Shown here: piece by piece, positions 30,385 to 43,395 of the stretch | Layout: each line of letters opens with the position of its first letter | Position numbering within the stretch: position 1 is the first letter of the stretch | Assembly (NCBI RefSeq): GCF_000299575.1 | Contig: NZ_AMGO01000068.1 | Coordinates: 124,001 to 188,000 of the forward strand | Direction of reading: 5' to 3' | Length of the DNA stretch: 64,000 bases | Source of the DNA: Oceaniovalibus guishaninsula JLT2003 | GTDB taxonomy: Bacteria; Pseudomonadota; Alphaproteobacteria; Rhodobacterales; Rhodobacteraceae | The notes under the pieces: model-generated | Databases searched by the model: none | Seen by the model: the letters and a program-made list of their open reading frames with translations, nothing else | Told to the model about the DNA's origin: nothing | Position numbers and translations under genes: made by a program

Positions 30385-30512
30385 GGGGCGTCCGCCTGCC
30401 CCTTGCCGCCGACACGGCTTCGCCCGTTGCGCCCTGCCCCGATGGACGCATAGGGTTGCGGCACGCAAGGCGCGACGATGCGCCCCGCAATCGTGCCATT
30501 CAGGGAGAGACG

Positions 30513-30866
30513 ATGATCGAACGCCATCACACGGGGCCCCGCATGAGCCGGATCGTCAGGCACAACGGCAACGTCTATCTGTGCGGACAGGTCGGCAGCG
30601 GCGCGGACGTGACGGCGCAGACGAAGGACTGCCTCGCCCGTGTCGAGGCGCTGCTGGACGAGGCCGGATCGTCGAAGGCGCACATCCTGCAAGCCATCGT
30701 CTGGCTTGCCGATATGGGCGATTTCGAGGCGATGAACGCCGTCTGGGACGCCTGGGTGCCCGAAGACCATGCGCCCGCCCGCGCCTGCGGCGAGGCGCGG
30801 CTGGCCAGGCCCGACCTGCTGGTCGAGGTCATCGTCACCGCGGCCGTCGCGGAAGCGGCGCGATGA
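30513..30866 (+). CDS. RidA/YjgF-family enamine/imine deaminase
   Basis: A 117-residue RidA-fold protein of normal size. Family marks are [24 protein letters not shown] near residue 30 and [22 protein letters not shown] near the C-terminus, with the conserved Arg that binds the carboxylate of the imine. RidA proteins hydrolyse reactive enamines/imines released by PLP and other amine-forming enzymes. Its TGA overlaps the arginase ATG, and ornithine cyclodeaminase, which makes a cyclic imine, lies two genes on, so it probably handles imine intermediates of this pathway. GGGAGAG stands 6 bases upstream of the start. Confidence 0.88.
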
Positions 30867-31789
30867 CCGCGCGCACCTGCATCCTGGTCGGCGCCGGCAT
30901 GGATTGCGGCAAGCGGCGGCGGGGCTGCGTCATGGGGCCGGACGCCTATCGCACCGCCGGCATCGCCGAAACGCTGGCCGAACTGGGCTGGCAGGTCGAG
31001 GATCGCGGCAATCTCGACGGTCCCGTATGGGTGGCCGACGCGCCGGCGGGCCGGATTCACGCCCGCGAGGAAACCATCGCCTGGACGCGGATGCTGACCG
31101 ACGCCGCAGGCGACGCGATGAAAGCGGGCTTTCCGGTCTTCATGGGCGGCGACCATGCGCTGTCGCTGGGCAGCGTGGCCGGCGTCGCGGCCCATGCCGC
31201 CACGCTGGACCGCCCGCTTTTCGTTTTGTGGCTGGACGCGCATCCCGACATCAACACGCCGCACACGACGACATCGGGCAACCTGCACGGCACGCCCATC
31301 GCCTATGTCACCGGGCAGCCCGGTTTCGACGGCTTTCCGCCCCCGGCGGCGACGGTCCCGCCCGAAAACGTCTGCTTCATCGGCTTGCGTTCCGTCGATC
31401 GCCCCGAACGCGAGGCGATTACCGCGCGCGGCATGACCGCCATCGACATGCGCCAGATCGACGAACGCGGCATCGCGGCGCCGCTGGCCGAGTTTCTGGG
31501 CCGGGTCGAACGCGCCGGCGGCATGCTGCACGTCTCGCTCGACGTGGATTTCCTCGACCCGTCCATCGCGCCCGCCGTCGGCACCACCGTTCCGGGCGGC
31601 GCCACCTTCCGCGAGGCGCATCTGACGATGGAGATGCTGCATGACAGCGGCCTCGTCACGTCGCTGGATTTGGTCGAACTGAACCCGTTTCTCGACGATC
31701 GCGGGCGCACCGCGTCGCTGATGGTCGATCTTGCGGCGTCGCTGTTCGGGCGCAGCGTCTTCGACCGCCCGACGCACAGCCATTCGTGA
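30863..31789 (+). CDS. rocF: Arginase
   Basis: A 308-residue ureohydrolase that splits L-arginine into L-ornithine and urea. The binuclear Mn2+ ligands are visible: His98 in [10 protein letters not shown], Asp125/His127/Asp129 in LDAHPDI, and Asp227/Asp229 in [24 protein letters not shown] matches the arginase substrate loop rather than agmatinase. It overlaps the RidA stop (ATGA) and is followed 8 bp later by ornithine cyclodeaminase, so the module runs arginine to ornithine to proline. The N-terminal Cys6, Cys15 and Cys22 cluster is a little unusual and may affect redox sensitivity. Confidence 0.92.
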
Positions 31790-31797
31790 GACCGCCC

Positions 31798-32877
31798 ATG
31801 TCCGACTTCAGGCCCGCGCCCGCCCCGTCCGACCTGGCCTTCATCCGCTTCGTCAGCGTCGCGAACATGATGAAGCTGATCCACCGTATCGGCGTCGAGA
31901 CGATGCTGGCCGATCTTGTCCGCTATATCGAGGACGATTTCCGCCGCTGGCCCCTTTTTGACAAGACCCCGCGCGTCGCCAGCCATTCGGCCGTGGGCGT
32001 GATCGAACTGATGCCCACCTCGGACGGCGAGGTCTATGGCTTCAAATACGTCAACGGCCATCCCAAGAACACGCGCGAGGGATTGCAGACCGTCACCGCC
32101 TTCGGCCTGCTGGCGCGCGTCGATACCGGCTATCCGGTGCTGTTGTCGGAAATGACGATGCTGACCGCTTTGCGCACCGCGGCGACCAGCGCGATGGTGG
32201 CCCGCCACCTTGCGCCGAAAGGATCGCGGACGATGGCGATGATCGGCAACGGCGCGCAGTCCGAATTTCAGGCGCTGGCCATGCGCAAGGTCTGCGGCAT
32301 CGAGGAACTGCGCCTTTACGACATCGACGCCCGCGCCACGGAAAAGACCGTCGCCAACCTGCGCGACCGCGGTTTCGTCCTGACGCCCTGCAAGACCGCC
32401 GAACAGGCCATCGAGGGCGCGCAGATCGTCACCACCTGCACGGCCGACAAGCAATATGCGACGATCCTGACCGACAACATGGTCGGCAGCGGCGTGCATA
32501 TCAACGCCATCGGCGGCGACTGTCCCGGCAAGACCGAGCTGCACCGCGACATCCTGGCCCGGTCCGACGTCTTCGTCGAGTACACGCCCCAGACCCGGAT
32601 CGAGGGCGAGATCCAGCAGATGCCCGACGATTTTCCCGTGACCGAGATGTGGCAGGTGCTGACCGGCGCGGCACCGGGCCGCACGTCCGACCGGCAGATC
32701 ACCCTTTTCGACGGCGTGGGTTTCGCGATCGAGGATTTCTCGGCGCTGCGCTATGTCCGCGACCGGCTGGACGATACCGGCGATTACGAATGCCTCGACA
32801 TCATCGCCGATCCCGACGACGCGCGCGACCTTTTCGGGATGCTGGAACGCGCCCGCCCCGGCAACGGCAAATCCTGA
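31798..32877 (+). CDS. ocd: Ornithine cyclodeaminase
   Basis: A 359-residue enzyme of the ornithine cyclodeaminase/mu-crystallin family, converting L-ornithine to L-proline with release of ammonia and use of bound NAD+. The substrate part contains FKYVNGHPKNTREGLQTVTAF and VDTGYPVLLSEMTMLTALRTAA; the Rossmann domain has MIGNGAQSEFQALAM and the catalytic Asp region INAIGGDCPGKTELH, which matches true OCDs rather than lysine or diaminopropionate homologues. I chose the ATG at 31798; a GTG at 31786 overlapping the arginase stop is an alternative. It follows arginase directly and lies 16 bp before the phosphorylase gene, so the nucleoside genes may share its transcript. Confidence 0.91.
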   Translation: MSDFRPAPAPSDLAFIRFVSVANMMKLIHRIGVETMLADLVRYIEDDFRRWPLFDKTPRVASHSAVGVIELMPTSDGEVYGFKYVNGHPKNTREGLQTVTAFGLLARVDTGYPVLLSEMTMLTALRTAATSAMVARHLAPKGSRTMAMIGNGAQSEFQALAMRKVCGIEELRLYDIDARATEKTVANLRDRGFVLTPCKTAEQAIEGAQIVTTCTADKQYATILTDNMVGSGVHINAIGGDCPGKTELHRDILARSDVFVEYTPQTRIEGEIQQMPDDFPVTEMWQVLTGAAPGRTSDRQITLFDGVGFAIEDFSALRYVRDRLDDTGDYECLDIIADPDDARDLFGMLERARPGNGKS

Positions 32878-32893: not shown

Positions 32894-33727
32894 ATGCGCC
32901 CCGATTTTCCCCGCCGCCTGCAACGCGCGACCGACAGCATCCGCGCCCGGACGGATGCCCGGCCCGTGCTGGGCCTCGTCGCCGGCACCGGCCTTGCGCC
33001 GTTCCTGAACGAAATCGAGACCGCGGCGCGGATCCCCTATGGCGAGATCGCGGATTTTCCCGTCTCGACCGCGCCGGGCCATGCGGGGGAATTGCTGCTG
33101 GGCCATCTGCGCGGGCGGCCCGTCGCCGGGCTCAGCGGACGCCTGCATGCCTATGAGGGCTGGCATCCCGACGACATCGTGCTGCCCGTCTATGTCCTGC
33201 GTGCCTTGGGATGCGAAACGCTGGTGGTCACGAACGCCGCCGGGGGCCTGAACCCCGCCTTTCCCGTCCCCGCGCTCATGGCCATCGCGGATCACATCAA
33301 CCTGACGGGGCTGAACCCGCTGGCCGGTCCGAACGATCCGGCACTCGGGCTGCGCTTTCCCGATCTCAGCCGCGCCTATGACCCGGACCTGCTGCGCGCC
33401 GTGCAAGGGGCCGCGCGAGCATTGGGGATCGACCTTCGGACGGGCGTCTATGCGGGCTGTCACGGCCCCGCGCTGGAAACCAGCGCCGAGCGGCGGTTCA
33501 TGCGCCTTGTCGGCGGCGACGCGGTGGGCATGTCCACCGTACTGGAGGTGGTGGCCGCGAACCATGCGGGGATGCGCGTGCTGGGACTGTCGGCCATCGC
33601 CAATGCCGCGACCGGCGGGCCGGACCAGCAGCCCGACACCGTCGAGCAGATCGTCGCCGCCACCGAAGCCATCGCCGGCACCATCGGCACGCTGATCGCG
33701 CGGATGCTGGACAGCGGCGATCTGTGA
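32894..33727 (+). CDS. Purine nucleoside phosphorylase, trimeric PNP family
   Basis: A 277-residue cytosolic enzyme that splits purine nucleosides with phosphate to give the base and pentose 1-phosphate. Residues align one for one with human PNP with a constant shift of 6 late in the chain: Glu195 in GPALETSAE (human Glu201), Met213 in GMSTV (Met219) and Asn237 in SAIANAATG (Asn243); the phosphate-site His85 is in GRLHAYEG. The Glu/Asn pair is the mark of inosine/guanosine enzymes; methylthioadenosine phosphorylases have different residues there. The gene begins the nucleoside block, 61 bp ahead of the BMP receptor. Its product ribose 1-phosphate is a plausible substrate for the MtnA-like isomerase encoded at 41351. 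Confidence 0.92.
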   Translation: MRPDFPRRLQRATDSIRARTDARPVLGLVAGTGLAPFLNEIETAARIPYGEIADFPVSTAPGHAGELLLGHLRGRPVAGLSGRLHAYEGWHPDDIVLPVYVLRALGCETLVVTNAAGGLNPAFPVPALMAIADHINLTGLNPLAGPNDPALGLRFPDLSRAYDPDLLRAVQGAARALGIDLRTGVYAGCHGPALETSAERRFMRLVGGDAVGMSTVLEVVAANHAGMRVLGLSAIANAATGGPDQQPDTVEQIVAATEAIAGTIGTLIARMLDSGDL

Positions 33728-33788
33728 CCCTAGGCTTTGCCGCCGTATGGCGGACGGGCCGCACCGCCAGCAGGACCGGAGTTGTTCG

Positions 33789-34802
33789 ATGATACTTGAC
33801 CGATGCATCGCCGCCGCCACGCTGACGGCGGGGCTGGGCGTTGCCGGCGCCTTCGCGCAGGACCGGACGTTCTATTACGTCTCGCCCGATCCTATCGGCC
33901 TGAACCCCTTCCTTCAGATGGGCGAGGCCGGGATCCGCGCCGCCGCCGATGCCCATGACGCCGGCGCGGTCGTCATCGAAAGCGACACGCCGCAATCGCG
34001 TCTGGAAAACGTCAGCGCCGCGGCCAATGACGGGGCCGACATCGTGGTGGTGCTGGGGTTCGAGTTTTCGGACATCCTGCGCGACATCGCGCCGCTCTAT
34101 CCCGACACCCAGTTCCTGATCGTCGATCAGTGCATCTGGGACGACCGGCCCGACAACATCAGCTGCGCCGTCTTTCGTGAACACGAATCCGCCTTTCTGA
34201 TGGGGGCCGTGGCGGGGCTTGCATCGCAGGCGGACAAGGTCGCCGTGGTCTCGGCCATAGATATCCCGTTCCTGCACCGCTATACCGACGCCTTCGCGGC
34301 CGGGGCCCGCCACGTCGCCCCCGACACGCAGTCCGAGGTGCGATGGGTCGGCGGCCAGAACCCCTTCGCCGATCCGGTGCGCGCCAAGGAACAGGCGCTG
34401 GCGCTGGCCGCGGGCGGGGCCGACGTGATCTTCTCGGCCACGGCGGGCGGCGATTTCGGCGTGTTCGAGGCGGCGCAGGAACAGGGCTTCACCGTCACGA
34501 CGGTGGATGTGAACCATTGTCCAGCGGCGCCCGGCCGCATCCTCGACGGCACACTCAAGCGGGTGGACGAGGTGATCGGGACATCCATCGACCGCATCCT
34601 CGCGGGCGAGCGGTCGTTCGTCGCCACCTACGGTCTGGCCGAGGGCGGCATGGGCGCGATTTCGCTGCTGCCCGACGCGGAACTGGCCGAAAGCGGCTGT
34701 CTGGTCGCCGACAGGCCCGAGATCGTGGCGCAGGTGCGCGATCTGGCGGCGCAGATCGTGGACGGCAGCCTGACGGTCGCCGATCCGATGGCCGCGGACT
34801 GA
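33789..34802 (+). CDS. BMP-family ABC transporter substrate-binding protein (nucleoside type)
   Basis: A 337-residue periplasmic receptor of the BMP/PnrA family. A signal peptide covers about residues 1-24 (LTAGLGVAGAFAQ). The mature protein shows VVLGFEFSDILRDIAPLYPDTQFLIVDQ and AFLMGAVAGLASQADKVAVV, family blocks that line the ligand cleft. Members of this family with the RbsA-like ATPase and two permeases, as here, import purine and pyrimidine nucleosides. The neighbouring phosphorylase supports a nucleoside ligand. Start at the ATG just before the signal; an upstream in-frame Met adds 14 polar residues. It lies three bases before the ATPase start, without the hairpin seen behind other receptors in this window. 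Confidence 0.9.
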   Translation: MILDRCIAAATLTAGLGVAGAFAQDRTFYYVSPDPIGLNPFLQMGEAGIRAAADAHDAGAVVIESDTPQSRLENVSAAANDGADIVVVLGFEFSDILRDIAPLYPDTQFLIVDQCIWDDRPDNISCAVFREHESAFLMGAVAGLASQADKVAVVSAIDIPFLHRYTDAFAAGARHVAPDTQSEVRWVGGQNPFADPVRAKEQALALAAGGADVIFSATAGGDFGVFEAAQEQGFTVTTVDVNHCPAAPGRILDGTLKRVDEVIGTSIDRILAGERSFVATYGLAEGGMGAISLLPDAELAESGCLVADRPEIVAQVRDLAAQIVDGSLTVADPMAAD

Positions 34803-34805
34803 CCC

Positions 34806-36329
34806 TTGCCGGGTGACGGCCTGCCGGGGGCGGTCTGCCGCCTGCGCGGCATCGACAAGCGGTTCGGCGACACCCATGCGCTGCGCGACGTTTCGCTCGA
34901 CCTGATTCCGGGCGAGGTTCTGGCGCTGGTGGGCGAGAACGGCGCGGGCAAGACGACGCTGATGAATGTGCTTTTCGGCCTGCTGCGTGCGGAGGCCGGG
35001 CGGCTCGACCATGATGCGGGCACGGGGTTCTTCGCCGATGCGGCCGACGCCATCGCCCACGGCTTCGGCATGGTGCATCAGCATTTCATGCTGTTCGACG
35101 ACCTTACCGTTCTGGAAAACGTGATCGTCGGCGCCGAGGGTCCGGGGCGGCTGGGGCGCATCGAGCTTGCGGCGCGGGCGGGCGAAGTGGCGGCGGTGAT
35201 GGCGCGGTTCGGCTTTGCCCTGCCGCTGGATGTCCGCGTGCGCGATCTGCCCGTCGCCACGCGCCAGCAGATCGAGATCGTCAAGCTGCTGTACCGTCAG
35301 GCCCGCGTCGTGATCCTGGACGAACCGACCGCCGTGCTGACCCCGCAGGAGGCCGGCGCGCTGTTCGCCATGCTGCGCGGGCTGGCCGACGAAGGGCGCG
35401 CGGTCGTCGTCATCACCCATAAGCTGCCCGAGGTGACGGCCCATGCCGACCGCGTGGTGGTCATGCGCGGCGGCGCGGTGGTGGCCGACCGCGCGGTGGC
35501 GGACACGTCGGCGGCGGAAATCGCCCGCCTGATGGTCGGGCACGACATCGCCCCGGTCGCCAAGCGCAACCATGCCGGGGCGGGCGTGCGGCTGGCGCTG
35601 CGCGATCTGCATTGCGCGCCCCGCGCGGGCGAGCGGCCGGTCGGCCCCGTCGATCTGGACCTGCGGCCCGGCGAGATCCTGGGCATCGCCGGCGTGGCCG
35701 GCAGCGGGCAGGGGCCGCTGGTCGAAACGCTGGTGGGTCTGCGCCCGGCGGCAAGCGGCCAGATCGCGATGGACGGCATCGACATCACCCGCGCGGATGT
35801 GGCCGCGCGGCGTGCGGCGGGTCTGGCCTATATGGCCGAGGACCGGATGCGCGCCGGACTGGCCGTCGATGCCAGCCTGGCCGAGAACGCCGTCGCCGGA
35901 CGCGAGGCGCAGCCGCCTTTCGCGCGCGGCCCGTTCCGGCGGCTGACCGCCGTGGCCGCGTTCGGACGCGACCTGATCGCGCGCTACGACATCCGCGCCA
36001 CCGGCCCCGCGCAACGCGCCGCGGACCTGTCGGGCGGCAACAAGCAGAAGATCGTCGTCGCCCGCGAACTGGCCGGGCAACCGCGGCTGATCGTGGCGCA
36101 CAATCCCTGCTGGGGCGTCGATATCGGCGCGATCCGCTTCATCCAAGACCGTCTTCTCGAGGCCGCGCGGTCGGGCGCGGCGGTGGTATTCGTCAGCTCC
36201 GAGCTGGACGAGCTTTTCGCCCTGTCGGACCGTCTGGCGGTGCTTCACGATGGCCGAATGCAGGCGCTTCTCGACCGGGCCGATCTGGACATCGCCCGCG
36301 TCGGCCGGGCGATGGCGGGGGCCGCGTGA
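34806..36329 (+). CDS. ABC transporter ATP-binding protein with two NBDs (nucleoside importer)
   Basis: A 507-residue RbsA/YufO-like tandem ATPase. NBD1 has an intact Walker A (GENGAGKTT) and Walker B (VVILDEPTAVL), but its signature is altered to LPVATRQQIEIVKLL, lacking the usual SGG. NBD2 has a broken Walker A (GVAGSGQGPL, no Lys) with a good signature LSGGNKQKIVVAREL. This leaves one composite catalytic site (NBD1 Walker motifs with NBD2 signature), a known feature of the family. The only plausible start is a TTG four bases after the receptor stop. The stop overlaps the first permease (GTGA). Confidence 0.88.
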   Translation: MPGDGLPGAVCRLRGIDKRFGDTHALRDVSLDLIPGEVLALVGENGAGKTTLMNVLFGLLRAEAGRLDHDAGTGFFADAADAIAHGFGMVHQHFMLFDDLTVLENVIVGAEGPGRLGRIELAARAGEVAAVMARFGFALPLDVRVRDLPVATRQQIEIVKLLYRQARVVILDEPTAVLTPQEAGALFAMLRGLADEGRAVVVITHKLPEVTAHADRVVVMRGGAVVADRAVADTSAAEIARLMVGHDIAPVAKRNHAGAGVRLALRDLHCAPRAGERPVGPVDLDLRPGEILGIAGVAGSGQGPLVETLVGLRPAASGQIAMDGIDITRADVAARRAAGLAYMAEDRMRAGLAVDASLAENAVAGREAQPPFARGPFRRLTAVAAFGRDLIARYDIRATGPAQRAADLSGGNKQKIVVARELAGQPRLIVAHNPCWGVDIGAIRFIQDRLLEAARSGAAVVFVSSELDELFALSDRLAVLHDGRMQALLDRADLDIARVGRAMAGAA

Positions 36330-37321
36330 CGCGCCGGGGCTGGATCGTGCCGCTTGCGGCCCTCGCGCTGATCGCGCTGGTGCCCGGCCTGCGCGCCGTC
36401 GCCCTGGGGTTTCTGGACGGGGCGTTCGGGGGGCGCAACCTGTTCAATCTGTGGTCCACGCTGTCGCGCGCGTCGATCCTGCTGGGAATGGCCATCGCCG
36501 TGCTGGTGGCGTTCCGGGCCGGCCTGATCAATCTGGGCGGCGAGGGGCAGTTGGTGCTGGGGGCGCTGGCGGCGGCGCTGGTCGGCATATACGCGCCGCT
36601 GCCCGGCTGGGCCGTCGCATCCGCCGCGCTGCTGGCGGCGACGGTCGCGGGCGGGCTTTGGGGGATGCTGGCGCTGTGGCTCGACCGGGGGCTGAGGGTG
36701 CCGCTGCTGGTCGGATCGCTGCTGCTGAACTATCCGGCGGTGCAGTTCGCATCCTGGCTGGCCTCGCATCCCCTGCGCGACGTGGCTTCGGGCAGCGCGC
36801 AGACCCACCGTATCGACGGCGCGGCGCGGCTGCCGCGCTTCGACGGCACGATTTTGGATTACGGCATCTTCCTGACGGTCGCCGTGGCGCTGCTGGCGAT
36901 CCTTGCCGACCGCTACACCGTCTTCGGCTATCGTCTGCGGATGCAGGGGCTGGCGCCGGATTTTGCCCGCGCGCAGGGTATGCCGACGCGGCGGTTGGGC
37001 TATCAGGCGCTGTTTCTCAGCGGGGCCATTGCCGGGCTGACCGGGTTCACCGCGGTCTTCGGCTTCGCGCAGCGCTATGTGGACGGGATGCTGACCCAGC
37101 CGCTCTATGCCTGGACGGGGATCGTCGCGGTGCTTCTGGCCGGAATGGTGCCGTGGCGCGTCCCCGTCGCGGCGCTGATCTTCGCGGTGCTGGCGACCGG
37201 GGCCGGCGGAATGGAACGCGTGGCCGGCATTCCGCGCGAATCCGCGCAGATCGTCATCGCGCTGGCGATCCTGTGGCTGGCGGGGTCGGGCCGGTCGCCG
37301 ATGCCGGGGCGCGGCCGATGA
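36326..37321 (+). CDS. Nucleoside ABC transporter permease 1
   Basis: A 331-residue membrane protein of the YufP/BPD_transp_2 family. It starts at a GTG overlapping the ATPase stop. About eight to nine helices are visible, beginning WIVPLAALALIALVPGL; the family block AFRAGLINLGGEGQLVLGA and the cytoplasmic coupling region GYRLRMQGLAPDFARAQGM are present. It pairs with the next permease to form the channel. Its ATG-overlap with that gene (37318-37321) keeps the two subunits stoichiometric. Nothing is missing compared with homologues. Confidence 0.9.
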   Translation: MTRRGWIVPLAALALIALVPGLRAVALGFLDGAFGGRNLFNLWSTLSRASILLGMAIAVLVAFRAGLINLGGEGQLVLGALAAALVGIYAPLPGWAVASAALLAATVAGGLWGMLALWLDRGLRVPLLVGSLLLNYPAVQFASWLASHPLRDVASGSAQTHRIDGAARLPRFDGTILDYGIFLTVAVALLAILADRYTVFGYRLRMQGLAPDFARAQGMPTRRLGYQALFLSGAIAGLTGFTAVFGFAQRYVDGMLTQPLYAWTGIVAVLLAGMVPWRVPVAALIFAVLATGAGGMERVAGIPRESAQIVIALAILWLAGSGRSPMPGRGR

Positions 37322-38214
37322 TCTGGGACGCCACGTTCTTCGAATCCGTCCCGCGCTTCGTCACGCCGCTGCTGCTGGCGTCCCTCGGCGGTGCGCTGTG
37401 CCACCGGGCGGGGGTGTTCAACATCGCGCTGGAGGGAATGATGCTGATCGGCGCGTTCTTCGCGGTGGTGGGCAGCTATTTCACCGCGCACTGGCTGGGC
37501 GGCCTCGGCGCGGCCGTGGCTTCGGGGCTGGCGGCGGGGGCGCTCTATGCCTGGGTGGGGGTGCGCCGGGGCGGCGACGACATCGTCGTGTCGATCGGGC
37601 TGAACATCCTGGCCGCCGGGCTGACGGCGTTTCTGCTGCGCGCCATCTTCGACCAGCGCGGCCAGTTCGACGATCCGGCCATCGCCACCCTGCCGCGCAT
37701 CGCGCTGCCGGGCATCGACGCGGTTGCGAGCCTCGGTCCGCTGCTGTCGGGGCAATCGGTGCTGTTCTGGGCGGCGCTGGCGCTGGTGCCGCTGCTGGCC
37801 TGGGGCCTGACGCGGCACCGTCTGGGGCTGCGCATGCGGGCGGCCGGCGACAATCCCGCGGCCTTGCGGACGTTGGGCGTGGCGCCCGAACGGATCCGCA
37901 CGGTCGCGGTTCTGGGCAGCGGCGCGCTTTGCGCCCTGGCGGGGGCGCAATTGTCGATCTCGAACGTTTCGCTTTTCACCGAAGGGATGAGCGCGGGGCG
38001 CGGCTGGATCGCGGTGGTCATCGTGATGATGTGCGCCGGGCGCCCCGTCTGGATCCTGCCCGCCGCGCTGTTTTTCGGCCTGATCGACGCGCTGGCCGTG
38101 CGCGCGCAGGTCTTCGGCTTGCCGCAGCAACTGACCGAGGCCCTGCCCTACGGTCTGGCGATCGCGGTGATGGCCGTGGCGCTGCGCCGGGCGGCCTTCC
38201 GGGTGCGGACCTGA
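37318..38214 (+). CDS. Nucleoside ABC transporter permease 2
   Basis: A 298-residue YufQ-like permease with about eight helices. Recognisable blocks are ALCHRAGVFNIALEGMMLIGA near the N-terminus and GLRMRAAGDNPAALRTLGV, the coupling helix, near residue 170. It is the last gene of the plus-strand transporter unit. Its stop lies 13 bp from the stop of the converging RuBisCO-like gene, with a small hairpin over both stops. Transport should be directed inward with the BMP receptor. Confidence 0.9.
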   Translation: MIWDATFFESVPRFVTPLLLASLGGALCHRAGVFNIALEGMMLIGAFFAVVGSYFTAHWLGGLGAAVASGLAAGALYAWVGVRRGGDDIVVSIGLNILAAGLTAFLLRAIFDQRGQFDDPAIATLPRIALPGIDAVASLGPLLSGQSVLFWAALALVPLLAWGLTRHRLGLRMRAAGDNPAALRTLGVAPERIRTVAVLGSGALCALAGAQLSISNVSLFTEGMSAGRGWIAVVIVMMCAGRPVWILPAALFFGLIDALAVRAQVFGLPQQLTEALPYGLAIAVMAVALRRAAFRVRT

Positions 38215-38230
38215 CGGCCGGGCGGCGTCA
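38212..38230. terminator. Small hairpin at the convergent permease/RLP junction
   Basis: TGACG (38212-38216) pairs with CGTCA (38226-38230), plus two further inner pairs, followed on the plus strand by CTTTT. It spans both stop codons and could serve as a weak terminator for the transporter operon. Complementary TGA and TCA stop codons contribute to the pairing, so caution is needed. Confidence 0.35.
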
Positions 38231-39331
38231 CTTTTCAAGCCGGGCGCGCAGACGGGCTATGGCATCGCCCATGCGGTCCCCTTCGCGCAGCAGGCTGCCC
38301 CCCAGCAGGAAGGCCGCGTCGTCGCCATACATCGCGCGCATCTCGTCGGCCCGGTCCAGGGTCATGCCGCCGCCGGGACCGGGCAGGATCGGCCGGCCGA
38401 TCCCTTCGGGCGCGCGGCAGGCCAACGCGATGTCGGCGCATTCCGCCGCCGAGAACCCGAAACGCCCGCCGACATTGGGAAACACCGAAATGTCGGCCCC
38501 GGCCAGCCGCTGCAATGTGCCGAACATCATCGCGTGGCTGAACCCGGTATCGGACGACAGGACGTAAGGCCCCAGAAAGCTGGGATGCGTCATCACCGGC
38601 AGCGGCCGCTTTCGTCGTGCCAGCCGCCGCACAAGCCCGAAGCCGAACAGCCCCGGCATCGCCAGAAACCCGTCCACACCCGCATCTTCGGCGAAATCCG
38701 CCAGCGCCTCCAGATCCTCGGGATGGCCGGCGATGTTGGGGAAATAGAGCGTCCGGCCCCCCCTCGCCGCATTGGCGCGGGCCACGGCATCGGCGATGCG
38801 CCGCACCCGGTCGCGGAAGGGGGCGCAGGGCTGATCGGTCAGGCCGTGGTCTTCCTTGACGATATGCGCGCCGCCCCGCGCGCAAAGCTCCGCGATCCCG
38901 GCCAGCCGTTCGGGCGTCGATCCCTGCGGCTTGAGCACCGGCACGATCAGCGGGCCGCGCGCGCCCGTCAGATCGCGCAGCCCCTCCATGCCGAAATTCG
39001 CCCCCGGATGGGCGCGTGCCAGCGGGCCCAGATCCAGCGCCGTCACCTTCAGCCCCTTCTGGATCGACGAATTGCCGAAGATGACGTTCAAAAGCTGCGG
39101 CAGCTCCTCGCCGCAGCTCTCAAGGCTGTAGCTGATGCGCGCGACGAAGGCGCCGTCCTCGGGCGCCACATCCTCGACCCGGCCGAGGATCGTATCCTCG
39201 ACAAAGCCGGGCGGCACCGCGTCGCGCGGGATCTCGACCGTCTGTTCCAGCGCGATGGCCTCGGCCCGCGCCCGCGCCTCGGGCTCGGTTCCGGCCAGGA
39301 TGCGATAGGTGACGGCGAAGCGGTCGGTCAA
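38228..39331 (-). CDS. RuBisCO-like protein (form IV)
   Basis: A 367-residue member of the RuBisCO large-chain superfamily, shorter than true RuBisCO (about 470). Residues at equivalent active-site positions are Lys134 in VLKPQG (usual Lys175), Lys159 in IVKEDHG (the carbamylated Lys201), Asp161 (metal ligand) and His249 in MTHPSF; the third metal ligand Glu204 is replaced by His162 and there is no obvious loop-6 Lys. So it can probably bind Mg2+ and enolise a sugar phosphate but not fix CO2. The only suitable start is a TTG overlapping the transketolase stop (TTGA). Known RLPs isomerise or tautomerise methylthio-ribulose phosphates or act on branched sugar acids. Here, with PNP, MtnA-like isomerase and transketolase, I infer a ribulose-1-phosphate to xylulose-5-phosphate isomerase. 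Confidence 0.85.
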   Translation of the reverse strand: MTDRFAVTYRILAGTEPEARARAEAIALEQTVEIPRDAVPPGFVEDTILGRVEDVAPEDGAFVARISYSLESCGEELPQLLNVIFGNSSIQKGLKVTALDLGPLARAHPGANFGMEGLRDLTGARGPLIVPVLKPQGSTPERLAGIAELCARGGAHIVKEDHGLTDQPCAPFRDRVRRIADAVARANAARGGRTLYFPNIAGHPEDLEALADFAEDAGVDGFLAMPGLFGFGLVRRLARRKRPLPVMTHPSFLGPYVLSSDTGFSHAMMFGTLQRLAGADISVFPNVGGRFGFSAAECADIALACRAPEGIGRPILPGPGGGMTLDRADEMRAMYGDDAAFLLGGSLLREGDRMGDAIARLRARLEK

Positions 39332-40332
39332 AGCGCCTCGGCCTTGACGTCGGAATGCACGGCGTCGATGCGCGCGGCGTCCAGATCCCGCTCGGCGATG
39401 CCGAACTCCTCTCCGACCAGCCCCTCGATCCCGCGCACCAGCGCCAGCGCGTCCAGTCCGTAATACCGCATCAGATAGGCGCGCGATCCGCCATGCGCAT
39501 AGGTGTCGCGCAGCCCCAGCCGCACCAGCCGCTTGCCGATCCCGGCATCGGCCATCGTCTCGGCCACCAGCGATCCGATCCCGCCCTCGGTCACATGGTT
39601 TTCCAGCGTGACGACGCCGTGCCGGACCGATCCGATATGGTCGAGAAGAGCCGCCGCGTCGAAGGGCTTGATCGTGTTCAGATGCAGGTGCCGCACCGAC
39701 AGCCCGGCCCGGTCCAGCGCGGCACGGGCGCGCATGGCTTCTTCGGTCGCGATGCCGGCGGTCACGACCAGAACGTCGCCGCCATGGGCAAGCTCGCGCA
39801 TCTTTCCCACCTCGATGGGCGTGTCGAACAGGCGCGGCACCGATCCGCGCAGCACGCGCGCATAGACCGGCCCGTCGATGCTGTCGGCGGCGGCGCAGAT
39901 ACTTTCCACCTCGGTCGCGTCGCCGGTTTCCAGCACCGTCATGTTGGGGATCGACCGCATGACCGATATGTCCTCGATCGCCTGATGCGTCATGCCGCCA
40001 GGGGTGGTCACGCCCGGCAGAAACCCCATCAGCCGGACCTTGCGGCGGGGATAGGCGATGGACGCCACAAGCTGATCGTAGGGACGCCGGTAGAGAAAGA
40101 CGCCGAACGTGTGCAGGAACGGCCGGAACCCCGCCAGCCCCAGACCGCCCGCGAAGCTGAGCATGTTCTGCTCGGCCATGCCGAGGCTGAGGAAACGATC
40201 GGGATGGTTGTCGCGGAAGCGGTCGATCTCGCACGACGAGGTGAGATCCGCCGACAGGCACAGCACGTCGGGGTTGGCCAGCGCATGCGCCTCGAACGCG
40301 GCCTCGTAGGGGCGGTTGACCATTTCGGGCAT
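39328..40332 (-). CDS. Transketolase, C-terminal subunit
   Basis: A 334-residue protein equal to the PYR plus C-terminal domains of transketolase. The ThDP-activating Glu is in LGMAEQNMLSFAGGL, the pyrimidine pocket in FGVFLYRRPYDQL, and the region GVTTPGGMTHQAIEDISVMR matches transketolase family blocks. It works as a heterotetramer with the N-terminal subunit whose stop overlaps its ATG (TGATG). Two-piece transketolases are common in sugar-catabolic clusters and are distinct from the housekeeping enzyme. It would transfer a two-carbon unit from a ketose phosphate, plausibly the product of the RuBisCO-like protein encoded just downstream. Confidence 0.88.
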   Translation of the reverse strand: MPEMVNRPYEAAFEAHALANPDVLCLSADLTSSCEIDRFRDNHPDRFLSLGMAEQNMLSFAGGLGLAGFRPFLHTFGVFLYRRPYDQLVASIAYPRRKVRLMGFLPGVTTPGGMTHQAIEDISVMRSIPNMTVLETGDATEVESICAAADSIDGPVYARVLRGSVPRLFDTPIEVGKMRELAHGGDVLVVTAGIATEEAMRARAALDRAGLSVRHLHLNTIKPFDAAALLDHIGSVRHGVVTLENHVTEGGIGSLVAETMADAGIGKRLVRLGLRDTYAHGGSRAYLMRYYGLDALALVRGIEGLVGEEFGIAERDLDAARIDAVHSDVKAEAL

Positions 40333-41270
40333 CAGGCATCCTCCAGCGAAACGGGGTCCGTTCCCAGCGCCTCGGCGATCTCGCGGTTCATCCGCGCGCG
40401 TTCCTCGGCGGACTTGAAGCGCACGTAATGCAGGCGCGGAAAGCGGGCCATCAGCGGCGGCATCCCCCGCGCGGGGTCGGTGCGCGCCAGAAGGATCAGT
40501 GGTCTGCCTTCGTGCGGGATGGCCACGGCGCGGCGCATGGCGTCCGGGTCGTGCCCGTCGATCCAGACGGCCACGCCGCCGAACGCCTCGATCTTGGCCT
40601 TGATGTCGCGCACGTCCATGACGCTGGACATGGCGCCGTCGCATTGCTGGTCGTTCACGTCCATGATGGCGTAAAGGCTGTCGATGCGGTGATGGGCGGC
40701 GGCCTGGATCGCTTCCCATGTCTGGCCTTCCTGCACCTCGCCGTCCGACATGAACACCCAGGTGCGGCCCGTGTCGCCGCGCCGCGCGCGGCCCCAGGCC
40801 AGGCCGGCGGCGGTCGAAAGGCCGATGCCCAGCGTGCCGTTGTGCACCTCCATGCCCGGCGAATGTTCCGCGCCGATCATCTCGACGCTGGAACCGTCGC
40901 GGTTGAACATCTCCAGCCCCTCGGGGGCCATGCGCCCGGTCTCGATCAGCGTCGCATAGGCGACCAGCGCGTAATGCGCGGGCGCGATGAACAGCCGGTC
41001 GTATTGCGGCGCCGCCGGGCCGTTATAGCCCGCGCCGGTCCGATAACCGGCATTGTCCGCCGACGGCACGCCGCCGAAGGGTTCGGGGATCATCGGCAGC
41101 GTCGGCGGCCCCAACCGCAATTCGTCGTGATAGAGCCATGCCAACTGCTCGGCCGCCGAACAGGCCTGGCTGAGATAGCCGCCGTTGTTGCGGATCGTAT
41201 GCTCGAACACGCGGCGGCGAATGCCGTGGGCCACGTCCTCGACCGTTCTTTCGTTCTGCCATGCGGTCAT
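40332..41270 (-). CDS. Transketolase, N-terminal subunit
   Basis: A 312-residue protein corresponding to the PP domain that binds the diphosphate and Mg2+ of ThDP. The motif runs from MSDGEVQEGQTWEA to DVNDQQ, and GAEHSPGMEVHNGTLGIGLSTAAG contains the conserved His/Gly loop (usual H-x-G-SLG). It is longer than many two-piece N-subunits (about 270), with an insertion around residues 55-90 (RLGPPTLPMIPEPFGGVPSA). It is the first gene of the minus-strand three-gene unit N-subunit, C-subunit, RLP, divergent from the mtnA-like gene with an 80-bp shared promoter region. Confidence 0.88.
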   Translation of the reverse strand: MTAWQNERTVEDVAHGIRRRVFEHTIRNNGGYLSQACSAAEQLAWLYHDELRLGPPTLPMIPEPFGGVPSADNAGYRTGAGYNGPAAPQYDRLFIAPAHYALVAYATLIETGRMAPEGLEMFNRDGSSVEMIGAEHSPGMEVHNGTLGIGLSTAAGLAWGRARRGDTGRTWVFMSDGEVQEGQTWEAIQAAAHHRIDSLYAIMDVNDQQCDGAMSSVMDVRDIKAKIEAFGGVAVWIDGHDPDAMRRAVAIPHEGRPLILLARTDPARGMPPLMARFPRLHYVRFKSAEERARMNREIAEALGTDPVSLEDA

Positions 41271-41305
41271 CGTGGTTCCTTGCGGATCGAGTCTTGCGTC
41301 CGTTA

Positions 41306-41320
41306 CGTCTGGGGCAGACG
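41306..41320. promoter_or_regulatory. Inverted repeat in the transketolase/mtnA divergent promoter
   Basis: CGTCTG-GGG-CAGACG is a perfect 6-bp inverted repeat in the centre of the 80-bp region between the two divergent start codons. It is a candidate operator that could co-regulate the RLP-transketolase unit and the isomerase. No regulator gene is present in the cluster. Confidence 0.45.
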
Positions 41321-41350
41321 ATGGCGTGATCTGACGACAAAGGACACCGC

Positions 41351-42442
41351 ATGAAGGTTGACGGCAAGCCCTTCCGCTCGATCTGGGACGAAGACGGCGC
41401 GGTGCGGATCATCGACCAGCGATGGCTGCCCCACGATTTCCGCATCGCCCGGATCGAGACGCTGGACGATTTCGCCACGGCGATCCGCAACATGTGGGTG
41501 CGCGGCGCGCCGCTGATCGGCGCCACCGCCGCCTATGGCGTGGCAAGGCAGATGGCGCGCGATCCGTCCGATGCGGCCCTGTCGGAAGCCTGCGCCGTGC
41601 TGAACGCCACCCGCCCCACGGCGATCAACCTCGCATGGGCGCTGGACCGTTGCCGCGCGGCCGTGGCCCCGCTGCCAGCGGGCGACCGGGCGGATGCCGC
41701 GCTGACGCTGGCGCGCCGGATCGCCGACGACGACGTGGAATGCAACCGCCTGATCGGCGTGCACGGGCTGAACCTGATCCGCCGCATCGCCGCCCGCAAG
41801 CCCAGGGGCGAACCCGTTCGCCTTCTGACCCATTGCAACGCGGGCTGGATCGCCACGGTGGATTGGGGCACCGCCACCAGCCCGATGTATCAGGCCGCCG
41901 ATGCGGGCATCCCCCTGCATGTCTGGGTGGACGAGACGCGGCCGCGCAGCCAGGGCGCGCTGACCGCCTGGGAACTGGGCGCGCACGGCATCCCGCATAC
42001 CTTCGTCACCGACAATGCCGGCGGGCACCTGATGCAGAAGGGGCTGGTGGACATGGTCATCACCGGCACCGACCGCACGACCGCGCGGGGCGATGTCTGC
42101 AACAAGATCGGCACCTATCTCAAGGCGCTGGCGGCGGGGGACAACGATGTGCCGTTCTATGTCGCGCTGCCGTCCTCGACGATCGACTGGACGATGACGG
42201 ACGGGCTGCGCGACATCCCGATCGAGGATCGCGACCCGCGCGAGGTGACGCATGTGCAGGGCGCGCTGGACGACGGCACGCTCGGCCGCGTGCGCGTCAC
42301 CCCCGAAGGCACCCCGGCGGGCAATCCCGCCTTCGACGTGACGCCGGCGCGGCTCGTCACCGGGCTGATCACCGAACGCGGGCTGTGCGACGCGTCGGCC
42401 GAAGGGCTGGCGGGGCTTTTCCCGGCGCGCGGCGCGGCCTGA
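41351..42442 (+). CDS. mtnA: MtnA-family aldose-1-phosphate ketoisomerase
   Basis: A 363-residue member of the eIF2B-related isomerase family. The catalytic Cys162 (LLTHCNAG) and Asp241 (TGTDRTT) are both present, with [19 protein letters not shown] and [11 protein letters not shown] as family blocks; residues [12 protein letters not shown] complete the Rossmann part. The textbook reaction is 5-methylthioribose 1-phosphate to 5-methylthioribulose 1-phosphate; related members use ribose 1,5-bisphosphate. None of the other methionine-salvage genes (mtnK, mtnB, mtnC, mtnD) is nearby, whereas a purine nucleoside phosphorylase and a RuBisCO-like protein are, so ribose 1-phosphate is a plausible substrate here. 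The symbol refers to family, not proven function. Confidence 0.87.
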
Positions 42443-42532: not shown

Positions 42533-42970
42533 ATGCCACCCGTCATCCCGACCGACTTCACCCCCTGGGCCGCGCTGGCGGGCGGCGTGCTGATCGGGCT
42601 GTCCGCCGTCATGGTCATGGCGCTGTTCGGCCGGATCGCGGGGATCGTCGGCATCACCGCCGGGTCCGTCGCGGGGCCCGATCGCGGCTGGCGGATCGCC
42701 TTCATCGGTGGCCTTCTGGCGGCGCCGCTGGCATGGATTGTGGCGACGGGCAGCCTGCCGCAGCAGACGGTCGGCGACAACCTTGCGGGCATGGCGCTGG
42801 CCGGGCTGCTTGTCGGCATCGGCACGGCACTGGGATCGGGCTGCACCTCGGGGCACGGCGTCTGCGGGCTGGCGCGGCTGTCGCCCCGGTCGCTGGCGGC
42901 GGTGGCGACGTTCATGGCCTTCGCGGCGGCGACCGTCTTCGTGCTGCGGCACGGGACGGGGGCGGCGTGA
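42533..42970 (+). CDS. YeeE/YedE family membrane protein, first half
   Basis: A 145-residue membrane protein with four predicted helices. The signature SGCTSGHGVCGLARLSPRS contains Cys104 and Cys111, the residues that relay thiosulfate or sulfur in the YeeE (TsuA) family. Two short halves encoded in tandem, as here, are thought to form one channel equal to the longer single-chain YeeE. Likely substrate is thiosulfate or another reduced sulfur species. Its stop overlaps the ATG of the second half. Start preceded by AAGGAG. Confidence 0.88.
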   Translation: MPPVIPTDFTPWAALAGGVLIGLSAVMVMALFGRIAGIVGITAGSVAGPDRGWRIAFIGGLLAAPLAWIVATGSLPQQTVGDNLAGMALAGLLVGIGTALGSGCTSGHGVCGLARLSPRSLAAVATFMAFAAATVFVLRHGTGAA

Positions 42971-43395
42971 TGCGGACCGTCTTCGGCTTCCTGTCGGGTC
43001 TGGTCTTCGGCACGGGCCTGATCCTGTCGGGCATGGCGGATCCGGCCAAGGTGCTGAACTTTCTCGACATCGCGGGCGCGTGGGATCCCAGTCTGGCCTT
43101 CGTGATGGGCGGCGCGGTGCTGACGGCGTTCATCGGCTATCGGCTGGCCTGGCGCAGGGACCGGCCAGTTCTGCTGGACCGCTTCGATCTGCCTGCCGCG
43201 CGGTCCATCGACGCCGGGCTTCTGGGCGGCGCGGCCTTGTTCGGCATCGGCTGGGGCATCGGCGGCTTCTGCCCCGGCCCCGCCTGGACGGCGCTGCCGC
43301 TGGCCGCGCCCGGAACGCTGGTCTTCGTTCCCGCGATGCTGGCGGGCATCGGGCTGGGCCGCCTGACACGGACAAGACGGCCGACCTTGCCGTGA
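42970..43395 (+). CDS. YeeE/YedE (DUF6691-type) membrane protein, second half
   Basis: A 141-residue partner of the preceding protein, with four helices. GLVFGTGLILSGMADPAKVLNFLD is the family block; Cys101 in GIGGFCPGPAW is the equivalent relay Cys. The ATG overlaps the upstream stop by one base (TGATG). It is followed one base later by the antiporter gene, an unexpected but tight linkage. I infer a two-chain sulfur-compound importer. Confidence 0.88.
   Translation: MRTVFGFLSGLVFGTGLILSGMADPAKVLNFLDIAGAWDPSLAFVMGGAVLTAFIGYRLAWRRDRPVLLDRFDLPAARSIDAGLLGGAALFGIGWGIGGFCPGPAWTALPLAAPGTLVFVPAMLAGIGLGRLTRTRRPTLP

Follow-up and report, generated by a model that had tools for sequence, protein, structure and literature searches.

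MtnA, a RuBisCO-like protein and a two-subunit transketolase in a probable salvage cluster for 5'-methylthio nucleosides in Oceaniovalibus guishaninsula

The 64,000-nucleotide stretch of the Oceaniovalibus guishaninsula JLT2003 genome analysed here (the window, which lies on contig C68; genome size 2.9 Mb) carries a 9.5-kb gene set, at 32894-42442, running from a purine nucleoside phosphorylase (PNP) to the 5-methylthioribose-1-phosphate isomerase MtnA. Judged from sequence, this cluster probably serves the catabolism or salvage of purine nucleosides of the 5'-methylthio and, probably, the 5'-deoxy kind. The window variant is a nucleoside-fed form of a wider core made up of MtnA, a RuBisCO-like protein (RLP) and a two-part transketolase. 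An earlier sequence-only reading had placed a PNP, a four-gene BMP-type importer, an RLP, a two-subunit transketolase and an MtnA-type isomerase within these 9.5 kb, and family models recovered all of them.

In the route we propose, the BMP importer would take up the nucleoside and the PNP paralogue would act on it as the 6-oxopurine 5'-methylthioinosine, whose phosphorolysis yields hypoxanthine and 5-methylthioribose-1-phosphate. From this sugar phosphate MtnA would form 5-methylthioribulose-1-phosphate, in which the RLP would shift the keto group, with 1-methylthioxylulose-5-phosphate as the product. This ketose would then be split by the altered two-subunit transketolase, which replaces the cupin of the methylthioadenosine (MTA)-isoprenoid shunt, into glyceraldehyde-3-phosphate and a thiamine-bound two-carbon unit that carries the methylthio substituent. 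Most relatives would instead feed free methylthioribose (or 5-deoxyribose) into this core by way of a ribose-type importer and methylthioribose kinase (MtnK). All substrates, together with the reaction and the acceptor of the transketolase, are what we infer from the observed gene content, family membership, partner swaps and residue changes.

To follow the core beyond the window we surveyed 390 sampled genomes of the order. Any match to the window RLP at E 0.001 was found in 108 of them; 26, the window's own included, carry the RLP subtype, defined as at least 56% identity. Neighbourhoods were read at all 26 loci, over stretches of 12.8-19.9 kb (64 kb for the window). Both transketolase genes lie within the examined stretch at every one of the 26 loci and MtnA at 24, a grouping that exceeds chance; a PNP with BMP importer sits inside the cluster at one locus of the 26, that of the window alone. 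Together with an MtnA-transketolase fusion described below, this linkage supports the order of steps in that reading, from sugar-1-phosphate through MtnA and RLP to transketolase. MtnK lies in the cluster at 22 of the 26 loci and a ribose-type importer at 21, the two occurring together at 21. Over whole genomes, MtnK scores over cut-off in 22/26 with the cluster and in 15/364 without it (Fisher p 2e-22, uncorrected for kinship).

Plasmid records with an RLP match numbered 75, of which 40 were listed and 8 examined in detail. Five loci on Rhizobiaceae/Devosiaceae plasmids have importer, MtnK, MtnA, both transketolase chains and RLP in a row; the plasmid records name the cluster transketolase 'transketolase' or 'DXP synthase N-terminal domain-containing protein'. 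Beyond the order sample, a PNP stands in place of MtnK on a Ponticoccus plasmid (L032) and in a genome of another family in the class (G589, locus L172). In the latter, MtnA and the transketolase N-chain form one open frame of 656 residues (L172:7152-9119, minus strand, G589:C286), a strong sign that both serve one pathway. The neighbours of this fusion are a transketolase C-chain, an RLP and a SorC-like regulator, besides a nucleoside transporter of the NupC-like type (below cut-off, at 301.1 of 442 bits) and, adjoining the transporter, a PNP that lacks the His257 considered below. In the nearest relative (G087), a PNP-BMP importer operon and an MtnK-ribose-importer-MtnA-transketolase-RLP cluster lie on different contigs. 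Two entry modules, kinase with sugar importer and phosphorylase with nucleoside importer, plug into one core, and nucleoside phosphorolysis, as the sequence-only reading had it, is supported as one of the entries. On a plasmid of Vibrio nigripulchritudo (L037, 6932-11551), the RLP and split transketolase are accompanied by an FGGY-family kinase and a CUT1 importer, and the locus has neither MtnA nor MtnK; this is one more version of the core, entered by a different way. One locus (L070, on the same contig as L040) was excluded from all sets.

The residues of the transketolase bear on the nature of its donor. All 38 cluster N-chains read GGGY or NGGY in the segment of yeast His30 and EMIGA(E/D)HSPGM, with no GHP motif, in that of His103; of the 11 transketolases used for comparison (8 full-length and 3 split), 10 retain both histidines. 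We take His103 of the yeast enzyme to contact the C1-OH of the donor. Given the loss of this histidine, the donor of the cluster enzyme probably lacks a C1-OH, as do 1-methylthioxylulose-5-phosphate and 1-deoxyxylulose-5-phosphate. Thiamine domains are present by Pfam, and the C-chains keep equivalents of the catalytic Glu of the AEQ motif, of His481 and of Arg528; L080 gave no match in the C-chain set. At the His469 position the window C-chain has Leu, and the two solved transketolases with which it was compared have His. Among models for the C-chain a transketolase one scores best, with that of 1-deoxyxylulose-5-phosphate synthase (DXS) next.

A comparable change is found in the phosphorylase. 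The window PNP scores 315.7 bits against NF006054 (cut-off 218) and slightly below cut-off against TIGR01700 (278.5 of 293.35). It is below cut-off on the 5'-methylthioadenosine phosphorylase (MTAP/MtnP) model (62.1 of 274.85) and far below it on the NCBIfam methylthioinosine phosphorylase model (58.8 of 223). We aligned 33 PNPs, comprising 25 of the best-matching ordinary ones (315 of the 390 order genomes have a PNP match) and 8 of a separate clade (100*) with the window PNP inside; L119-L123 and L087 were dropped from the tree as duplicates. The Asn243 position is kept in 33/33. At the His257 position all 25 ordinary PNPs have His and none of the eight does; five of these have Val, Ile or Leu, and three (L032, L092, L172) have a His-free stretch with a small insert, where the exact residue is unsure. 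We take Asn243 to contact the 6-oxopurine and His257 (human PNP) to contact the ribose 5'-OH; human methylthioadenosine phosphorylase has Val at the equivalent place. Five of the PNPs without His have an amidohydrolase as neighbour. Scans of three of these amidohydrolases gave the TRZ/ATZ hydrolase model PRK09045 as best and 5'-deoxyadenosine deaminase among the next, none over cut-off; those of L120 and L122 were matched by blastp alone. A BMP importer stands beside four of the eight and a NupC-like transporter beside one. A short-chain dehydrogenase adjoins the His257-less PNP in G087, G011 and G290 (L119, L121 and L122), and not in the window.

The families of the window genes are clear with the exception of the RLP, for which no NCBIfam model scores over cut-off. 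It matches PF00016 over cut-off, and all six NCBIfam matches (MtnW, RuBisCO and OiaX models) fall below theirs, with 140.4 of 409 and 103.2 of 513.6 bits for the MtnW models and 65.4 of 438 for the RuBisCO large subunit. Among 385 sampled Alphaproteobacteria genomes, 16 further RLPs at 37-46% identity adjoin a cupin in 13 cases, a split transketolase in 2 and a contig end in 1. In a quick tree (both the RLP and PNP trees were of this kind, the former with warnings for the long rows L069, L037 and L036), the cupin-linked RLPs form one clade (100*, L137 inside) within a grouping (99*) that holds the transketolase-linked RLPs and lies far from other RLPs and RuBisCO. Equivalents of RuBisCO Lys175, Lys201 and Asp203 are kept in all 64 rows. 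The Glu204 position is His in 39/40 transketolase-linked rows and 14/14 cupin-linked rows; the remaining 10 rows have Glu in eight cases and His in two (L074 and presumably L137, both inside the grouping), and the Vibrio RLP (L037) has Asp. L037 was left out of the position lists, in which 53 positions are near-invariant in both transketolase-linked and cupin-linked RLPs. The solved structure closest to the window RLP, by sequence and by fold, is the Rhodopseudomonas palustris RLP 3qfw; the structure model came from an 8-sequence alignment (mean pLDDT 81.2), and the fold comparison agreed with the sequence result and added nothing to it. R. palustris has two RLPs, and the title of 2qyg names rlp2 of this species, so 3qfw probably represents RLP1. 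In R. palustris and Rhodospirillum rubrum, the product of the RLPs of cupin-partnered type is 1-methylthioxylulose-5-phosphate (PMC5893883).

We have a weak preference for sulfur over plain deoxy sugars, because the RLP groups with the cupin-linked RLPs and because a BisC/TorA-type S/N-oxide reductase is encoded in the Ponticoccus alexandrii plasmid operon, between MtnA and the transketolase genes (L032:4797-7073; 901 of 1017.55 bits, below cut-off). This reductase fits a sulfur-bearing substrate and hints at a substrate sulfoxide. Its annotation as 'molybdopterin-dependent oxidoreductase' had suggested a xanthine dehydrogenase, which the family scan did not bear out. No bacterial use of methylthioadenosine sulfoxide was found among the literature matches, judged by title.

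Several observations weigh against the methylthio nucleoside route. No amidohydrolase adjoins the window PNP or two others of the eight that lack His257, and the window's genome holds no close match to the PNP-linked amidohydrolase, its best (33%) being a guanine deaminase; deamination in this organism would have to be carried out by one or other of two adenosine deaminase-type proteins. Two of the 26 order genomes (G020 and G023) showed neither MtnA nor MtnK near the RLP on either side. The comparison transketolase without His30 and His103 is a split one (L128:246-2170, G321:C4) beside a short-chain dehydrogenase and a TRAP transporter. Asp477 is absent from the cluster C-chains and kept in 7/7 full-length enzymes; 3/3 comparison split chains also lack it, for which reason its loss was set aside as a sign of a special donor. 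The transketolase-linked RLPs are not one clade in the quick tree (3 changes), and they have a loop around residues 258-270 that the cupin-linked RLPs and 3qfw lack. The pocket arguments draw only on sequence and on the residue roles assigned to yeast transketolase and human PNP. Finally, E. coli MtnK prefers 5-deoxyribose tenfold over methylthioribose (PMC10986504), and plain deoxy sugars therefore fit nearly as well.

This last point leads to the alternative that survives best, which we nonetheless regard as unlikely. The same route may have plain 5'-deoxy nucleosides and 5-deoxyribose, by-products of radical S-adenosylmethionine (SAM) enzymes, as its physiological substrates, with the RLP making 1-deoxyxylulose-5-phosphate and the transketolase cleaving the bond that DXS makes. 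Enzymes of the dihydroxyacetone phosphate (DHAP) shunt handle both sugars, and MtnK can prefer 5-deoxyribose (PMC10986504). A transketolase that has lost the C1-OH histidine would suit a donor with a C1 methyl just as well, and the second-best score of the DXS model for the C-chain also speaks for it, whereas the Ponticoccus reductase and the RLP grouping point to sulfur.

Less probable still is the route of the sequence-only reading, in which inosine or guanosine would give ribose-1-phosphate, then ribulose-1-phosphate and xylulose-5-phosphate, and the transketolase would simply belong to the ordinary pentose pathway. Gene order and chemistry permit it, Asn243 of the PNP suits inosine and guanosine, and a guanine deaminase gene is present in the genome. 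However, ordinary ribose is disfavoured as the sugar by the loss of the 5'-OH histidine from the PNP and of the C1-OH histidine from the transketolase, by the grouping of the RLP with cupin-partnered RLPs, and by the MtnK genes of the order loci. An ordinary route is also encoded elsewhere in the window's genome, by a second, ordinary PNP at C6, an ordinary full-length transketolase at C7 (such a gene is present in all 26 cluster genomes) and a phosphopentomutase (deoB) at C20 that is over cut-off and adjoins an adenosine deaminase-type gene; deoB is over cut-off in 22/26 cluster genomes. These genes weaken that reading's argument from a route with no kinase or phosphopentomutase. The genome also encodes a third protein of the PNP superfamily, in a 491-residue frame; no MtnP over cut-off and no MtnK was found there. 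Most likely the skeleton and chemistry of the sequence-only reading are right, and the substituent that it replaced by OH should stay SCH3, or be H. It is very improbable that the transketolase does not use the RLP product and is merely co-regulated for another reaction, such as two-carbon transfer onto a free aldose, as a promiscuous Synechococcus transketolase does in making 7-deoxysedoheptulose from 5-deoxyribose (PMC8102628), given the invariant RLP-transketolase linkage in the order, the overlapping genes in the window, the G589 fusion and the partner swap with the cupin.

On the favoured methylthio route, the transketolase may hand the two-carbon unit on to an acceptor, set methylthioacetaldehyde free or expel methanethiol. 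By analogy with phosphoketolase, which expels water, we tentatively suggest that the transketolase might be a C-S-cleaving thiamine enzyme, although we think this doubtful. It would take the CH3S-CH2-CO unit of 1-methylthioxylulose-5-phosphate, expel methanethiol and leave an acetyl unit (acetate or acetyl phosphate) and glyceraldehyde-3-phosphate. If so, a single step would release both the carbon and the sulfur of methylthioribose, with no need of an aldolase, a cupin or glutathione.

The cluster resembles several described systems. Like the MTA-isoprenoid shunt of R. rubrum and R. palustris, it combines nucleoside phosphorolysis, MtnA and an RLP of the same grouping, which in the shunt acts on 5-methylthioribulose-1-phosphate (PMC5893883). 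It differs in having a two-subunit transketolase where the shunt has a cupin, a phosphorylase that in the window is PNP-type and not MtnP-type, and importers as members of the cluster. With one cupin query run on the loci only, no cupin was found at any of the 26 order loci (window included), 7 plasmid loci or 6 genome-contig loci of the transketolase type. The DHAP shunt of E. coli and B. thuringiensis likewise has MtnK or a phosphorylase as alternative entries, followed by MtnA, and takes 5'-methylthio and 5'-deoxy sugars (PMC10986504); the carbon cleavage proposed here would follow the RLP step and use a thiamine enzyme, not the aldolase Ald2. In that shunt MtnP stands in for nucleosidase plus kinase (PMC10986504), and the exchange of kinase and phosphorylase between our clusters parallels it. 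The methylthioadenosine deaminase and methylthioinosine phosphorylase of P. aeruginosa (cited in PMC6302742) resemble the proposal in the phosphorolysis of a 6-oxopurine nucleoside, and some relatives have a deaminase-like gene beside the PNP. Given that the window PNP is in the PNP-I branch and far below cut-off on the methylthioinosine phosphorylase model, a specificity shared with P. aeruginosa would be convergent.

Split transketolases of sugar catabolism include the apulose-4-phosphate and sulfo-sugar enzymes. In these, as is proposed for our cluster, a two-subunit enzyme is recruited to an unusual ketose phosphate within a catabolic cluster; the partners differ, being MtnA and RLP here. 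Like the window cluster, the archaeal AMP, or pentose bisphosphate, pathway joins the phosphorolysis of nucleosides to an eIF2B/MtnA-family sugar-phosphate isomerase and a protein with the RuBisCO fold. The sequence-only reading saw in the cluster a bacterial counterpart of this pathway, a view that fails at the level of families, with 135.5 of 314.1 bits on the ribose-1,5-bisphosphate isomerase model and 63.1 of 497.45 on that of type III RuBisCO, both far below cut-off.

The gene set is arranged in two runs (Table 1). PNP, BMP-type binding protein, ABC ATPase and two permeases occupy the plus strand from 32894 to 38214; the transketolase N-chain, C-chain and RLP follow one another on the minus strand from 41270 to 38228, each start codon overlapping a stop codon at the junctions; MtnA diverges from this run. 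The start of the RLP is most likely the TTG at 39331, which overlaps the stop codon of the C-chain. MtnA scores 408.7 bits against TIGR00512 (cut-off 279).

Table 1. Genes of the 9.5-kb set, in window positions
Feature	Position	Strand	Basis
Purine nucleoside phosphorylase (PNP) paralogue, Asn243 kept, Val at His257 position; proposed 5'-methylthioinosine / 5'-deoxyinosine phosphorylase	32894..33727	+	NF006054 over cut-off, residue alignment, tree
BMP/PnrA-type nucleoside-binding protein	33789..34802	+	PF02608 over cut-off; start codon inferred
ABC transporter ATPase with two ATPase stretches	34806..36329	+	PF00005
ABC transporter permease 1	36326..37321	+	PF02653
ABC transporter permease 2	37318..38214	+	PF02653; start codon inferred
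RuBisCO-like protein (RLP), proposed 5-methylthioribulose-1-phosphate 1,3-isomerase	38228..39331	-	PF00016, tree, residues, nearest structure
Two-subunit transketolase C-terminal chain (pyrimidine-binding and C domains)	39328..40332	-	PF02779, PF02780, residues
Two-subunit transketolase N-terminal (thiamine diphosphate) chain, without His30/His103 equivalents	40332..41270	-	PF00456, residues
MtnA, 5-methylthioribose-1-phosphate isomerase	41351..42442	+	TIGR00512 over cut-off; solved relatives

On the PNP side, genes for RidA-like, arginase and ornithine cyclodeaminase proteins (30483-32877) end 16 bases 5' of the PNP on the same strand and are possibly co-transcribed with it. Directly 3' of MtnA, at 42533-43395, lie two small proteins. 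The second matches DUF6691; the first, which matches no Pfam family, is presumably YeeE/YedE-like. No homologue of the first protein, the one covered by the comparison, turned up in the relative loci compared.

Many of the RLP-transketolase loci (for example L033, L041 and L050) also have a SorC-like regulator and an aldolase/short-chain dehydrogenase fusion nearby. In the order sample the regulator, by weak matches, is near the core at 18/26 loci and the fusion at at least 7/26, or at least 5/26 at a stricter threshold; the latter counts are lower bounds because many stretches end before the fusion gene. The pattern looks as if a second, aldolase branch were co-regulated with the core. The fusion was considered as an essential step and set aside, the matches in the window's genome covering the dehydrogenase part only and none the aldolase part; Ald2 itself was not searched.

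No description of an MtnA-RLP-two-part transketolase cluster was found in the literature searched, most subscription papers being outside its reach. A promiscuous transketolase acting on 5-deoxyribose has been reported and one has been suggested in 5'-deoxyadenosine salvage in Methanocaldococcus (PMC8102628), which is the nearest published idea that we found. The cluster looks like an apparently new variant of methylthioadenosine salvage. If the proposal is true, it would add to the cupin and aldolase routes a further means of dealing with the sugar that methylthioadenosine and 5'-deoxyadenosine contain. This route comes with importers for external substrate, and methylthioadenosine is known to be excreted by Prochlorococcus (PMC11698098). 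An RLP subgroup and a transketolase subfamily would also gain a function, and the proposal would predict where marine and rhizobial bacteria might release methanethiol.

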